Positions 34,137 through 39,427 of a stretch of 64,000 nt of DNA are shown in pieces. The stretch's first letter is position 1; each line of letters begins with the position of its first letter. A model generated the notes under the pieces. That model had not been told where the DNA came from. It did not search any database and worked only from the letters and a program-made list of their open reading frames with translations. This DNA is from Ignavibacteria bacterium (GTDB taxonomy: Bacteria > Bacteroidota > Ignavibacteria > Kapaibacteriales > UBA961): positions 62,001 to 126,000 of the forward strand of contig VGWD01000001.1 in the NCBI GenBank assembly GCA_016873735.1, in the 5' to 3' direction. The translations under genes were made by a program, and so were the position numbers.

Positions 34137-34276
34137 GGTTGTTGTTAGTAAGTGTGAAACAATCCTCTGAAATGATTTACCAAAAATAGCAAAGCGGCAC
34201 TTCATCGGAAAGGAAACGCATATTCAGGCACAGATGATTCATACCATAAGTAGGTTCTTATGCTATGAAATGTAAC

Positions 34277-34284
34277 TAAATTTG
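34277..34284 (+). promoter_or_regulatory. Putative -7 element for the sigma factor operon
   Basis: TAAATTTG fits TAnnTTTG and ends 23 bases before the sigma factor ATG. The -33 position reads GTTC rather than TTTG, so this may be a weak or alternative-sigma promoter. Confidence 0.35.
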
Positions 34285-34307
34285 TCGAAAACTGTTATTT
34301 CACGCGT

Positions 34308-34874
34308 ATGACGAAGAGTCCTGCAGAGCATTCCGACATCGAGCTTTATGCCATGTTACGATTGGGGAAACCCATTTCGGAGCAGGCATTTGCGGAGTTA
34401 TATGCACGCTATTCCCCACGTATTTTTGCGTATTGCCGGCGGATATTGGGTGATTATGATCGTGCTCAAGATGCTTTTCAAGAAACATTTGTCAAGTTTT
34501 TCAATAGCGCACAGCAAGAAAGAGAGATGACAAATGTTCCTGCATATTTGCTAAGGATTGCCAGAAATTTATGTTTGAACATGCAAAGAGGGCAAAAAGG
34601 CCATGTAAGTCTTGAAGAGTATCATTTGCCCTTGCACTCAGATATGTCACATGACAAAAAAGAATTGCTTGATTTGATCACAAAGTCAATGGAACAATTG
34701 CCGGCTGATTATAAGGAAGCATTCATCTTGAGAGAATATGAAGGATTGAGCTATCAAGAAATTGCTGAACTGACAGAATCTTCTCTTCCCACCGTGAAGA
34801 TTAGAATTTTCAGAGCAAAACAAAAGATTCGGGAGATACTCGCCCCTTATGTGGCCGACCTCTCACAACATTGA
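34308..34874 (+). CDS. ECF-type RNA polymerase sigma factor
   Basis: A 188-residue sigma-70 family factor with region 2 (about residues 22-90: FAELYARYSPRIFAYCRRILGDYDRAQDAFQETFVKFFN, then YLLRIARNLCLN) and region 4 (about 125-182: LPADYKEAFILREYEGLSYQEIAELTESSLPTVKIRIFRAKQKIREIL, a helix-turn-helix). It lacks region 3 and the large N-terminal domain, as extracytoplasmic-function (ECF) factors do. The anti-sigma-like gene begins 18 bases after its stop, and the lipoprotein and T9SS protein genes follow on the same strand. Target promoters are unknown; autoregulation is a reasonable guess. The ECF subgroup was not assigned. Confidence 0.9.
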   Translation: MTKSPAEHSDIELYAMLRLGKPISEQAFAELYARYSPRIFAYCRRILGDYDRAQDAFQETFVKFFNSAQQEREMTNVPAYLLRIARNLCLNMQRGQKGHVSLEEYHLPLHSDMSHDKKELLDLITKSMEQLPADYKEAFILREYEGLSYQEIAELTESSLPTVKIRIFRAKQKIREILAPYVADLSQH

Positions 34875-34891
34875 ACAACTTTGTGATTGAT

Positions 34892-36112
34892 ATGAATCAA
34901 CAAACAAAACCCGAACACATTGATGAGCAACTGATTTCTTATCTCGATGGTGAATTACCTATCGAGCAAGAAGATTCCATGTTTCAATCACTCGCCTCTG
35001 ATGAGGAGGATGCACGCGGAACAATGCGTGAGCTCATCTCCATGCGCAATGTGATTCCACATGACATCGAAGCATTTACTCCACCGCCGGCCGCAAAAGA
35101 TGCCGTGTTCTCACAATTGGGAATGACTTCAAATTCTACTGTGAAAGAACAATCCTCCTGGAAAAGAGCTTTATTACCCCTTGCATTTCTTGCTCTAGGT
35201 TTGGCCGGAGGTTATGGCTTGGGAGATCGATTCTCCAACAATGATGAAGAAATCATGCAGTTGATGCGCAAGAGCTCAGCAAAAGGTGCCGTGGCACCTC
35301 TAACATCCATTGGCATTTCTCTGCAAGTGCCAACAATAGTGTTACAGCAAGCAGCTCCTGTAAAAGTGATCTACAGGGACAGAATACTAAATACAGCAAG
35401 TGTGACCCCTATGATCACTTTACCCCCGATTGCGGTGAATCAACAAAGTAATGCTCCTGCAGTTGATGAAATACAAACAATGACCACAGATTCAAAACCT
35501 GCGGATCAATCACCTATTGCATCAAGTGAAGTTTCATCCCAATCGAATACAAATGGGAACAATATCCAGGATCAGGTCATAAAAGAAACAGAACGTATCC
35601 AAATAGGAAATACTCATGCTGTATATCCTCAATTCTGGATTCAGTTGAGAAATATGTCTACTTTACAATCGCCGGAATTTTCAGGCATTCGAGAGCAATT
35701 GGGTATTATGGATAATTCTCGTGTGACATTTGCATGGTCATTGGGAGAACATTTCGCAGTTGGATTGGAAGCAGGAAGAGAGCCATTTGTTTTGGAGTAT
35801 CAAGGGATAAAAGAAGATAGACCTTTCGTCTTCAATCAATACTCCCCAATGCTCACCGGTGGACTATTTCTTCAGGGAAGAACTTCCGCTTTGGATTATC
35901 TTGGTAATTCCAGATTCTATGCACAGGCTGTGGCAGGCGGTTCCGAAATTGGAATTCTTGGAAGATTCGGATTGGGTATTGCATATCCAATCAGTGATGC
36001 AATTTCACTACAACTCGGCTTAGAGCAATCATATATGCAATTTCAATTTCAAGGCAATGCATTTGATTCTCAAAAACTTGATTTACTGTATGGAATCTCT
36101 ATCACATTATGA
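34892..36112 (+). CDS. Anti-sigma-factor-like membrane protein with C-terminal outer-membrane-protein-like domain
   Basis: A 406-residue protein. Residues 1-60 resemble anti-sigma N-termini (IDEQLISYLDGELPIEQE, then an alpha-helical stretch), but no Cys zinc finger is seen. One hydrophobic segment (92-112, RALLPLAFLALGLAGGYGLG) should place the rest in the periplasm. A Ser/Thr/Gln/Asn-rich linker (about 185-240) leads to a beta-rich domain (245-406) with aromatic-terminated strands such as FWIQLRNMS, HFAVGLEAGREPFVLEY and ILGRFGLGIAYPI, as in small outer membrane barrels. The start is ATG 34892. The stop overlaps the lipoprotein start. The sensing role is inferred from position next to the sigma factor. 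Confidence 0.7.
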   Translation: MNQQTKPEHIDEQLISYLDGELPIEQEDSMFQSLASDEEDARGTMRELISMRNVIPHDIEAFTPPPAAKDAVFSQLGMTSNSTVKEQSSWKRALLPLAFLALGLAGGYGLGDRFSNNDEEIMQLMRKSSAKGAVAPLTSIGISLQVPTIVLQQAAPVKVIYRDRILNTASVTPMITLPPIAVNQQSNAPAVDEIQTMTTDSKPADQSPIASSEVSSQSNTNGNNIQDQVIKETERIQIGNTHAVYPQFWIQLRNMSTLQSPEFSGIREQLGIMDNSRVTFAWSLGEHFAVGLEAGREPFVLEYQGIKEDRPFVFNQYSPMLTGGLFLQGRTSALDYLGNSRFYAQAVAGGSEIGILGRFGLGIAYPISDAISLQLGLEQSYMQFQFQGNAFDSQKLDLLYGISITL

Positions 36113-36843
36113 TGCATATGAAAAATCATACAATACATAGCAGACTTTTGGTCAAAGTGGCTTCACTCTTCTTGTTGATGCTTATTGGGTGCAAGTCACC
36201 GATTGATCTCGATAAGGATGTGAAGGAAGTACCCATTCAAACAAAGCTTGTTGAGGTATCCGATATTAGTTTTTCCGTCGATGGAGGTGGAAGATCAATG
36301 CGATACATTCCAAATTTACCTCCTGAAGACAGTAGATTTTTATTCAGCACTTTCAAACTCGAAAAGATTCATATCGATACCACAAATAAACAAACACTGA
36401 CTTTGGCAATGAAATATGGTATCATTACTAATGTAGGAGATACATCTCGCTTTGAAGAAGTGTTGCCTGTATCGCTTTATCATGAATTAGATACCATCAA
36501 TATCCCAATTTTTGAAAATCCGCCAGGGCCAAGAGATAAGAAACCGTTCATGATGAAAATATCTAAGTTAAAAACCTATATTTTCACCAAAAAGAAAGAT
36601 GGAATGAATGGATTTCGAATGGTAAGGTCCGAGAGAGAGTTCGACCTCCTTGAAGATTCCAAAGGTGACAATCATGTCGATTCTTATGTCTATGCTATTA
36701 GATCAAGAATGCCACAAGGCAAAACAGGTGTCATTGTATTCATTGAATCAGGTTTTACATTAAACGGTGTTGAGATTGATTCCTATGACAAAAAATTTCG
36801 CTCAAATTCGAGCGGAAGATCCATCTTGAAAATTTCTTTTTGA
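36109..36843 (+). CDS. Hypothetical lipoprotein of the sigma/T9SS operon
   Basis: A 244-residue protein with a type II signal: LFLLMLIGC, with the lipid-modified cysteine at about residue 28. The mature part has alternating strands and polar turns and no domain I recognise. Parts such as FLFSTFKLEKIHIDTTNKQTLTLAMKYGI suggest a beta-sandwich. ATG 36109 overlaps the preceding stop, and in-frame ATGs at 36112 and 36118 are alternatives. Position between the anti-sigma-like gene and the T9SS protein gene suggests a role at the same envelope site. The function is unknown. Confidence 0.65.
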   Translation: MMHMKNHTIHSRLLVKVASLFLLMLIGCKSPIDLDKDVKEVPIQTKLVEVSDISFSVDGGGRSMRYIPNLPPEDSRFLFSTFKLEKIHIDTTNKQTLTLAMKYGIITNVGDTSRFEEVLPVSLYHELDTINIPIFENPPGPRDKKPFMMKISKLKTYIFTKKKDGMNGFRMVRSEREFDLLEDSKGDNHVDSYVYAIRSRMPQGKTGVIVFIESGFTLNGVEIDSYDKKFRSNSSGRSILKISF

Positions 36844-36876
36844 TAATGTATACACTTTCATTTTTAGAGGTCCAAA

Positions 36877-39372
36877 ATGGTCCACATTAACAGATTAACA
36901 AGCCTGCTCGCTTTCATGCTCACATTGCTGCTTGCAGGTACTTCAACCGTCATGGCAAATGCTCCCGGCAAACCAAAAGAACTCAAGGTTATTGCTGAAG
37001 GCGCAGGCATCGCACCGGCAATCGTCAACCTTTCATGGGTAGCCCCTTCAGATGATACAACATTGGAATATGTTGTCTATATGGCATCCATGACTGTAAA
37101 TGTAACAACCGATTACAAAGCAATCATTGAAACATGGAAAACTTCTGCCATTGTGAAAGATGTACCTGCAGGTACGCACAAATTCTATGTTGTGGCTAGA
37201 GCACGTGGTGCACAAAGCGAGCCTTCGGATAAAATTGCAATCACGATTCGTGGTGAAGAACCAAAAACATTTGGAATCATCATTGATCCCCCTATTCATT
37301 ATATCCTCGAAGGCAAAGTTTTTACGTATCAAGTGAAACTCCAATACCCATCAACCTACAAAGGTGGATTTGGGTATAAACTCGAAAAATCACCTGCGGG
37401 CATGACAATTTCTGACAAAGGCGTCATTGAATGGAAGACACCGATTTATGGAAGTCATGAGATAATAGTTTCTGCTTGGATGTTAGAAGCTCCAAAATCT
37501 CAAGCTGTGAAATCCTTCAAGATCGAAGTTGGGTATGAATCCAAAAAATTTGAAATCATATCCAAACCAAAAGAAATCGCATGCCTTAATAAGTTATACG
37601 TATACGAAGCAGTTGCAAGAGTACCTTTTGTTGATGGCGGCACAGTTGTTTGGTCACTCTTCGAACCAATTGATGGTATTTCAATAGATGAAAAATCCGG
37701 TCGCTTTACATGGACTCCTACAAAAGTTGGTTCTCAGCGCGTAAAGATCAAAGCAACATTCATCAAAGGAAATGATACGCTCATAACATATCAGTCATGG
37801 ACAATTGTTGTCAAAGAAAATTGCGATAATATTCCTGCTCCTCCATGTGCAAAATTCGTAGGCATGCTCAAAGATGACAATGGAAATCCAATCTTGACCG
37901 GAAAGGTAAAACTCATCAGACTTGAGAAGGACAATTTGGGTCCATCAGCTTATGAAGCACAAGTCAAGAATGGTCAATGGATGGTAATGGTTCGCGCAGG
38001 TTCATATAAGATTAGATTCGAAGGCGAAGGCTTCATTGCTGAATGGTATGAAAATGTACTTGAAATGGGTGAAGCAAAAGTCATGATTGCAGAATGCGAT
38101 AAAATCATTGAAGTACCTGCAAAAGTTACCGTAAAAGAAAAGCCCGCAATGAAGGTAATCGAAGGAATGGTAAAAGACAGCGAAGGCAATCCTGTACCAA
38201 ATTCCATGGTTTCGTTTATGATCATTGAAGCGAATGGTGGAAACAAAGATGGCGGAATGAGATTCGCTGTAAAAACAAATGCTCAAGGTAATTATCGCAT
38301 TGAAGTTCCTGCGGGAATGACCTATATCGCGATGGCAACTCCAAATGAAGCATTGGCAAAAACACATTCGCATGTCTATTATGATGGCAAGCTCAATGCA
38401 AATGATGCTCTTCGTTTCACCGTAAATGAAGTGATGGTGATTAATTTCACATTAATCAAAAAAGCAGTGTTTAACAATGGCCTTGCAGCTTCATTGAAGG
38501 ATACAAACGGCATTGGCATCAAAGGTCGCATCACATTGCTTCCGGTTCAAAAAGATAAAGAACCTAAAAAAGGAATGGCTATTACGGTTGAAACAGATTC
38601 AAATGGCAATGCTTTGTTCTCAAACATTCAACCTGGTACATATATCATTCAAGGTATTCCTCATACTCGCAATTATGCTCCGGGCTTCTATACAACTACC
38701 GGTTATGCTGCAATGTCTTGGAAAGAAGCTACAAGAGTTGAAATTGGCGAAGTGATGATTACACTCGTTTATGATATTCGTCTTCGCCCCGTACTCGGCA
38801 AGCGTGGAGCTGCTCGCGTTGATGGCATCATCAAAGGTCGTGGAATCATTGCTAAACGAGAATCTTCATTTGCAGAGCAAGAGCTTGGTGGCGCACTCCT
38901 TTATGCTCTTGATGAAAACAATGATATCGCAGACTATGCATTAAGCGATGGTGCAGGTACATACTCTATGTTTGACTTGGGTCAAGGTACATTTTCAATT
39001 ATGGCAGACATGGTTGATTATGAGCCGGCATTTGGCACTGTTTCAACAGATTATGTAAATGCAAGAACCGTAAACAGTTCAATAACCTTGGGCAATAATG
39101 CTTTGTCTGTGGAAGACCCAACAATGGTGCGCGGTGAGAATGTGTATCCGAATCCGGCAAATGCACAGATCACAGTTTCCGGAATCACAATGCAAGGTGT
39201 TGTAACGATGAGAATTTTCTCAAACACGGGAATAATGATTACCGAATTCCCAGTGAATATCAATGGCGATCACATCACATTCCCTGTTAATGACCTTGCA
39301 GTTGGTACATACATGTTCAGCATCAAGCAAAACATTGTAATAATGAATGGTCAATTCTCCATCATTCGTTAA
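36877..39372 (+). CDS. Large secreted multidomain protein with T9SS sorting domain
   Basis: An 831-residue protein. After a signal peptide (residues 1-28) come an FN3-like domain (about 31-125, GKPKELKVIAEGAG...VNLSWVAPSDD), two Ig/cadherin-like domains (130-315), then four carboxypeptidase-regulatory-like beta-sandwiches (about 325-410, 430-530, 540-635, 650-735) with phrases such as GMVKDSEGNPVPNSMVSFM and TDSNGNALFSNIQPGTY. The C-terminal 75 residues are a T9SS sorting domain (VYPNPANAQITV...DLAVGTYMFSIKQ). The layout suits an adhesin or scaffold on the cell surface. No enzymatic motif is visible. It is the last gene of the sigma-factor operon, 33 bases after the lipoprotein gene. Confidence 0.78.
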   Translation: MVHINRLTSLLAFMLTLLLAGTSTVMANAPGKPKELKVIAEGAGIAPAIVNLSWVAPSDDTTLEYVVYMASMTVNVTTDYKAIIETWKTSAIVKDVPAGTHKFYVVARARGAQSEPSDKIAITIRGEEPKTFGIIIDPPIHYILEGKVFTYQVKLQYPSTYKGGFGYKLEKSPAGMTISDKGVIEWKTPIYGSHEIIVSAWMLEAPKSQAVKSFKIEVGYESKKFEIISKPKEIACLNKLYVYEAVARVPFVDGGTVVWSLFEPIDGISIDEKSGRFTWTPTKVGSQRVKIKATFIKGNDTLITYQSWTIVVKENCDNIPAPPCAKFVGMLKDDNGNPILTGKVKLIRLEKDNLGPSAYEAQVKNGQWMVMVRAGSYKIRFEGEGFIAEWYENVLEMGEAKVMIAECDKIIEVPAKVTVKEKPAMKVIEGMVKDSEGNPVPNSMVSFMIIEANGGNKDGGMRFAVKTNAQGNYRIEVPAGMTYIAMATPNEALAKTHSHVYYDGKLNANDALRFTVNEVMVINFTLIKKAVFNNGLAASLKDTNGIGIKGRITLLPVQKDKEPKKGMAITVETDSNGNALFSNIQPGTYIIQGIPHTRNYAPGFYTTTGYAAMSWKEATRVEIGEVMITLVYDIRLRPVLGKRGAARVDGIIKGRGIIAKRESSFAEQELGGALLYALDENNDIADYALSDGAGTYSMFDLGQGTFSIMADMVDYEPAFGTVSTDYVNARTVNSSITLGNNALSVEDPTMVRGENVYPNPANAQITVSGITMQGVVTMRIFSNTGIMITEFPVNINGDHITFPVNDLAVGTYMFSIKQNIVIMNGQFSIIR

Positions 39373-39390
39373 CGTAATTACAACTAAAAA

Positions 39391-39427
39391 ATCCTCGCTC
39401 TCTTCATTGAGTGCGAGGATTTTTTTT
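39391..39427. terminator. Bidirectional intrinsic terminator between the T9SS protein gene and gcvT
   Basis: ATCCTCGC (39391-39398) pairs with GCGAGGAT (39413-39420), and an inner CTC/GAG extends the stem. T runs flank it on both strands (seven T after 39420 on the plus strand; the A run before 39391 on the other), so it can stop both convergent genes. Confidence 0.85.

Follow-up and report, generated by a model that had tools for sequence, protein, structure and literature searches.

The window analyzed here, a stretch of 64,000 nucleotides (nt), belongs to the 2.26 Mb genome of an Ignavibacteria bacterium of the order Kapaibacteriales (contig VGWD01000001.1, positions 62,001 to 126,000). 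Between a divergent terC and a convergent gcvT gene it holds a cassette of four open reading frames (ORFs) on the top strand. They code for a sigma factor of the extracytoplasmic function (ECF) type, a putative anti-sigma factor, a lipoprotein and a surface protein with a sorting domain of the type IX secretion system (T9SS). The features of the cassette, in window positions and with protein lengths in amino acids (aa), are as follows.

34271..34298, top strand: predicted ECF promoter; TGTAAC (34271-34276), 16 nt, TGTTAT (34293-34298), with an ATG 9 nt downstream
34308..34874, top strand: ECF sigma factor, 188 aa; Pfam Sigma70_r2 and Sigma70_r4_2
34892..36112, top strand: anti-sigma gene, its ORF open from TTG 34871 (34871-36112); AlphaFold2 model and homologues of like layout across the order
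36109..36843, top strand: lipoprotein, 244 aa; lipobox LIGC with Cys28 at 36190-36192, beta-rich body
36877..39372, top strand: T9SS-exported surface protein, 831 aa; Pfam matches and end-to-end alignment of homologues
39386..39425, no strand assigned: intrinsic terminator, probably bidirectional, between the cassette and the convergent gcvT

The anti-sigma and lipoprotein ORFs overlap by 4 bases, and 33 bases separate the lipoprotein gene from the T9SS gene. The preliminary description of this DNA reported four genes in one direction with short or overlapping junctions. This holds except for the overlap of the sigma and anti-sigma genes, which hinges on a TTG start at 34871; homologues favor the ATG at 34892, leaving a short gap. 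Position 34277, previously taken as the beginning of the cassette, is not a gene start and falls right after the -35 box. With an ECF-type promoter 5′ of the sigma gene and a strong terminator at the other end (13 + 3 pairs in a hairpin of -22.9 kcal/mol, with a U run behind it), the cassette is predicted to form one transcription unit, 34271-39425. Since the sigma ATG follows the second promoter box so closely, the transcript may be nearly leaderless.

When relatives were searched for the gene order, the identical four-gene arrangement was found in five sister genomes, with the outer neighbors also kept where the contig reaches them, and it recurred in other families. The order is therefore far beyond chance, and the cassette is a conserved unit as had been proposed. 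An apparent absence of the cassette from one genome (G002) was rejected, as the contig ends there inside terC.

The sigma protein matched Pfam Sigma70_r2 (3e-14) and Sigma70_r4_2 (8e-18); its best NCBIfam models, TIGR02985 (Sig70_bacteroi1) and NF058625, each remained below cut-off. Its partner had been described as a membrane anti-sigma-like protein. A barrel predicted to reach the outer membrane, seen in an AlphaFold2 model built from 19 sequences, had been overlooked. The predicted parts of the protein are listed with residues numbered from TTG 34871, and confidence is given as the predicted local distance difference test (pLDDT).

34913..35116, top strand: predicted cytoplasmic anti-sigma domain, residues 15-82; helices 15-25, 31-43, 48-69 and 73-82 (AlphaFold2)
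35168..35224, top strand: predicted inner-membrane helix, residues about 100-118, ALLPLAFLALGLAGGYGLG; hydrophobic stretch within helix 97-135
35288..35620, top strand: predicted disordered periplasmic tether of about 110 residues, about 140-250; pLDDT <50 from 75 to 247
35630..36106, top strand: predicted C-terminal 8-stranded outer-membrane beta-barrel, residues 254-412; AlphaFold2 and PDB folds

The eight strands of the barrel were modeled with pLDDT mostly >90, and the top PDB fold matches were outer-membrane barrels, for example NspA, OmpA, OmpW and OprG. The last residue is F in 51 and L in 14 of 76 distinct anti-sigma homologues, resembling the C-terminal signal of outer-membrane proteins. 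Helix 97-135 sits in a low-confidence part of the model; the tether is poorly conserved among homologues and rich in S, T, N, Q and P. In the N-terminal domain a YLDGEL motif is conserved and a weak match to an NCBIfam 'anti-sigma factor' model was obtained (3e-4), while no Pfam family, and hence no FecR domain, matched the protein at E ≤ 1. Overall, the anti-sigma factor is predicted to span both membranes, from a cytoplasmic domain through an inner-membrane helix and a tether to an outer-membrane barrel.

Anti-sigma matches were found in 59 of the 61 relatives searched, with up to 27 per genome. A sigma gene was located directly upstream in 75 of 76 distinct loci, and a lipoprotein-like N-terminus was encoded downstream in 71 of the 73 loci with a suitable gene, compared with 89 of 952 control ORFs. 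Sigma factor, barrel anti-sigma and lipoprotein are a fixed triad throughout the order, and single genomes hold numerous copies of this core triad that lack a T9SS gene. Outside the order, a few genomes of this class also carry full-length homologues of the anti-sigma, accompanied by a sigma gene and in some cases by a lipoprotein. Among lipoprotein homologues of this branch Cys28, D90, T91 and D128 are invariant, P31 is nearly so and an IDT motif is conserved. The AlphaFold2 model of the lipoprotein (pLDDT 82) has about nine strands; it matched no PDB fold at E ≤ 0.001, and no Pfam or NCBIfam family matched the sequence.

The 831-aa protein has a predicted signal peptide, immunoglobulin (Ig)-like and CarboxypepD_reg-like domains and a type A sorting domain at about 39142-39369; its Pfam matches are CarboxypepD_reg, He_PIG repeats and Por_Secre_tail. 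The sorting domain scored 28.7 bits with PF18962 (Por_Secre_tail, cut-off 27) and 22.6 with TIGR04183, slightly below the cut-off of 23. The domains of the sigma factor and of the surface protein agree with the preliminary description. The window's genome encodes the T9SS translocon SprA (TIGR04189, 2.8e-211, above cut-off) and contains about 70 T9SS sorting-domain matches. The protein aligned end to end with 10 homologues at 26-81% identity (26-31% between families); the genome's closest named relatives found through it are metagenome bins of Candidatus Kapaibacterium, Ignavibacteria and OPB56, and homologues are present in 94 of the 123 genomes of the order.

A search from the 831-aa protein alone found the sigma, anti-sigma and lipoprotein genes adjoining in 18 of 19 testable closer relatives, a count that includes one contig ending in the lipoprotein gene and one ending in the anti-sigma gene. 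At 80 further T9SS-protein loci the sigma/anti-sigma pair was adjacent in 43 of the 68 that were testable; this set partly repeats genomes of the first under other names, and the counts are not independent. The anti-sigma gene was upstream in the same direction at 32 of the 43 linked loci, divergent at 10 and downstream at one. Linkage to the pair was seen at 19 of the 21 testable loci scoring at least 700 bits. The preliminary description had allowed that homologues of the lipoprotein and the T9SS protein might be absent beside the pair in relatives, leaving the unit a coincidence; the adjacency at these loci speaks otherwise. On the sigma tree the T9SS-linked members group together (8 changes, against 26.4 after shuffling); the T9SS protein accompanies one sigma subfamily.

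Two variations of the T9SS end were observed. In one family a fifth gene follows the cassette (L089:12349-14352, also L079, L080 and L088), encoding in L089 a peptidase M1 domain and a T9SS sorting domain. At a divergent locus (L043:10917-16667) a 257-aa ORF repeats the beginning of the T9SS gene, a partial duplication separated from the full copy by another gene.

The promoter motif at 34271-34298 is the sole match of that motif within the window. Sister genomes and other families keep both hexamers ahead of the sigma gene; the spacer varies. At loci where all genes run in the same direction the sigma promoter motif was found in 23 of 33, compared with 9 of 603 upstream regions taken as controls; as expected inside an operon, the T9SS gene at these loci normally carries no motif of its own. 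At 12 divergent loci the T9SS strand bears the promoter motif of the local sigma gene, TGTTAC/TGTTA in one family and TTGCAAC/TGTGTTAT in another; the lone variants TTGCAAC/TGTGTATA and TTGTCAC/TGTGTAAT match the altered sigma promoter alongside. When the sigma site was fixed beforehand, the match summed over the 12 loci was 143, whereas 1000 shuffles gave a mean of 110.9 and a maximum of 120; the figure overstates independence, because the sigma sites were picked by eye after the regions had been read, which makes the test not fully blind, and because the loci are related. Each of the seven divergent loci of one family gave P ≤ 0.008. The stronger point is that the putative motif changes in step with that of the sigma gene in several lineages. 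Judged from these sequences, shared control of the T9SS gene and the sigma pair is well supported. The sigma factor had been suggested to sense or control export of the surface protein; control is well supported by sequence at the level of the gene, through the motif shared by divergent copies, and not at the level of sensing or export.

A palindromic operator was considered in place of a promoter and rejected: the second box ends in a variable base (T/C/G/A) and is often placed about 10 nt before the ATG, for which reasons a promoter is preferred. An unconstrained inverted-repeat search in the divergent regions was mostly not significant by locus. A large regulon in the window's own genome was likewise rejected, since 16 near-matches against 85 for a reversed-pattern control make a broad regulon unlikely. 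In six genomes of the genus the cassette motif was found ahead of genes for small lipoproteins that resemble LTXXQ (CpxP/Spy-like) proteins by a weak match (L164:4925-5853, L163:4582-4684, L166:4628-4727, L309, L311 and L162:4931-4958, the last at G000:C7:19930-19957). It is tandem in four of the six, and its match in the window's own genome contains a single mismatch; a paralogous sigma pair shares the contig of the lipoprotein genes in several of the six. The LTXXQ-like lipoproteins are a possible second target of the cassette sigma factor, or a target of a paralogous one.

A comparable design has been described in Bacteroides, where Dma proteins are dual membrane-spanning anti-sigma factors with the same order of domains (PMC13088901). 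As in Dma, the modeled protein runs from an anti-sigma domain through a transmembrane helix and a disordered tether to a C-terminal barrel, and its gene adjoins an ECF sigma gene (the Dma partner is of the ECF21 group). The Bacteroides dma2-type operon, recovered through DUF4943, also has a small lipoprotein as its third gene, the DUF4943 product there having a lipoprotein-like signal (L304/L305). The Kapabacteria proteins differ in their anti-sigma motif (YLDGEL), in being coupled to a T9SS protein and in being spread through a whole order. An hhalign comparison of the 24-row Kapabacteria family with two Dma2-type proteins gave a probability of 6.6%, that is, no detectable homology between them; similarity of design is thus shown and common descent is not, so we call the anti-sigma Dma-like and do not file it as a homologue. 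What the preliminary description offered as an undescribed system is known in its architecture; its T9SS-coupled version is not. The cassette is a Dma-type transenvelope anti-sigma design, and the coupling to T9SS is its new part.

Besides the cassette, a single further full Dma-like pair was found in the window's genome (L053:7597-10535; G000:C7). It comprises a sigma factor, a barrel anti-sigma and a lipoprotein of 377 aa that has Ig matches of the ASH/HYDIN type, and has no T9SS gene; its promoter keeps TGTAAC and differs in the second box (TCTTTA). A large expansion, 27 barrel anti-sigma matches, was seen in a 7.9 Mb relative (G029). Elsewhere in the phylum (L286:1614-4159, L296:1511-4059, L300:1422-3954) a sigma factor occurs with a short anti-sigma of about 240 aa and a separate protein of about 420 aa; the latter has a similar C-terminal motif, DGFGxxNA, and the arrangement is possibly a split form of the design. 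One contig labelled Bradyrhizobiaceae (L085) bears a Kapabacteria-type cassette, and its public label is probably wrong.

A T9SS sorting-domain protein is also tied to an ECF sigma factor in Porphyromonas gingivalis, where PorA feeds into SigP via a two-component system (PorXY) and SigP controls T9SS machinery genes (PMC7712824). A T9SS protein influencing a sigma factor thus has a precedent, by a different route. Here, in contrast, the sigma gene has a barrel anti-sigma gene as its neighbor and the linked T9SS protein is of the cargo type; no two-component relay is encoded within the four-gene cassette, PorXY homologues not having been searched for genome-wide. The proposed surface-to-cytoplasm signal to an ECF sigma factor also recalls TonB-dependent signalling of the FecR/FecA type. 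That system, however, relies on an anti-sigma with a FecR domain and on a TonB-dependent receptor as a separate protein, whereas the cassette has no receptor gene and its barrel and anti-sigma are one polypeptide.

On balance we consider it probable that the cassette is a surface-sensing operon of Kapabacteria with a transenvelope sigma/anti-sigma switch. The N-terminal domain of the anti-sigma would hold the ECF sigma factor at the inner membrane, and the C-terminal barrel, joined by the disordered tether, would let the same protein reach the outer membrane. There the barrel would sense an outer-membrane or surface change that the lipoprotein and T9SS protein of the same operon most likely bring about, and the sigma factor would be released to transcribe its own operon. 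The lipoprotein and surface protein would consequently be made together with the switch, on which they would probably act in turn. Computation supports the predicted barrel architecture, the triad, the T9SS link and the shared promoter motif; we infer that the sigma factor is released, that any of barrel, lipoprotein and T9SS protein make contact, and that the products feed back on the switch. More tentatively, the T9SS protein and lipoprotein might be ligands or plugs of the barrel, in which case the polypeptide would report cargo arrival to the sigma factor in a secretion-coupled feedback loop.

Several points weigh against the surface-sensing operon. The membrane topology of the anti-sigma and its barrel are predictions, and we infer the signal to the barrel, including any sensing of the surface protein or lipoprotein. 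At 25 testable T9SS-protein loci, mostly more distant ones, the gene is not near the pair, and unlinked T9SS genes (37 loci, contig-end cases included) lack the motif of the same-direction test; the T9SS link is therefore not universal, and those copies are probably under other control. The promoter matches of another divergent family are individually weak (P 0.03-0.08), and the divergent loci are related by descent.

An envelope-homeostasis response like that of Dma1/Dma2 is possible rather than probable. The architecture and shared control would be as in the surface-sensing operon, the barrel would sense the state of the outer membrane (folding, lipid or vesicle stress), and the lipoprotein and T9SS protein would be output only. 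Dma1 and Dma2 mutants alter vesicle output, and a dma2 mutant strongly induces its own operon (PMC13088901). The many paralogous loci that have the same barrel anti-sigma without any T9SS gene also favor homeostasis, as does the motif upstream of the LTXXQ-like lipoproteins. Against it, rearrangement has not parted the T9SS protein from its one sigma subfamily, and the sigma factor's promoter motif is retained; this tie is tighter than for most output genes, yet it fails to separate output from sensing. The cassette could also contain a plain ECF/anti-sigma pair, with the barrel as a passive anchor and activation by ordinary regulated periplasmic proteolysis. Proteolytic release is the common mode for membrane anti-sigma factors and the tether offers a cleavable sequence. 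Apart from the anti-sigma domain, however, no region is conserved as well as the barrel across about 25% identity; this points to a specific role, and a passive anchor is improbable. A chance neighborhood, in which neither the T9SS gene nor the lipoprotein has anything to do with the sigma pair, would agree with the unlinked T9SS homologues, but linkage at 43 of 68 loci, in both orientations and with shared promoter motifs, makes it extremely improbable, and it was rejected.

A conserved switch through both membranes, as proposed for the surface-sensing operon, suggests that the cell surface is connected directly to gene expression. With it, the transenvelope anti-sigma design reaches from Bacteroides to an entire order of uncultured bacteria. 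What the barrel senses becomes testable in this natural family, whose promoter motifs match, and the T9SS protein is the leading candidate.

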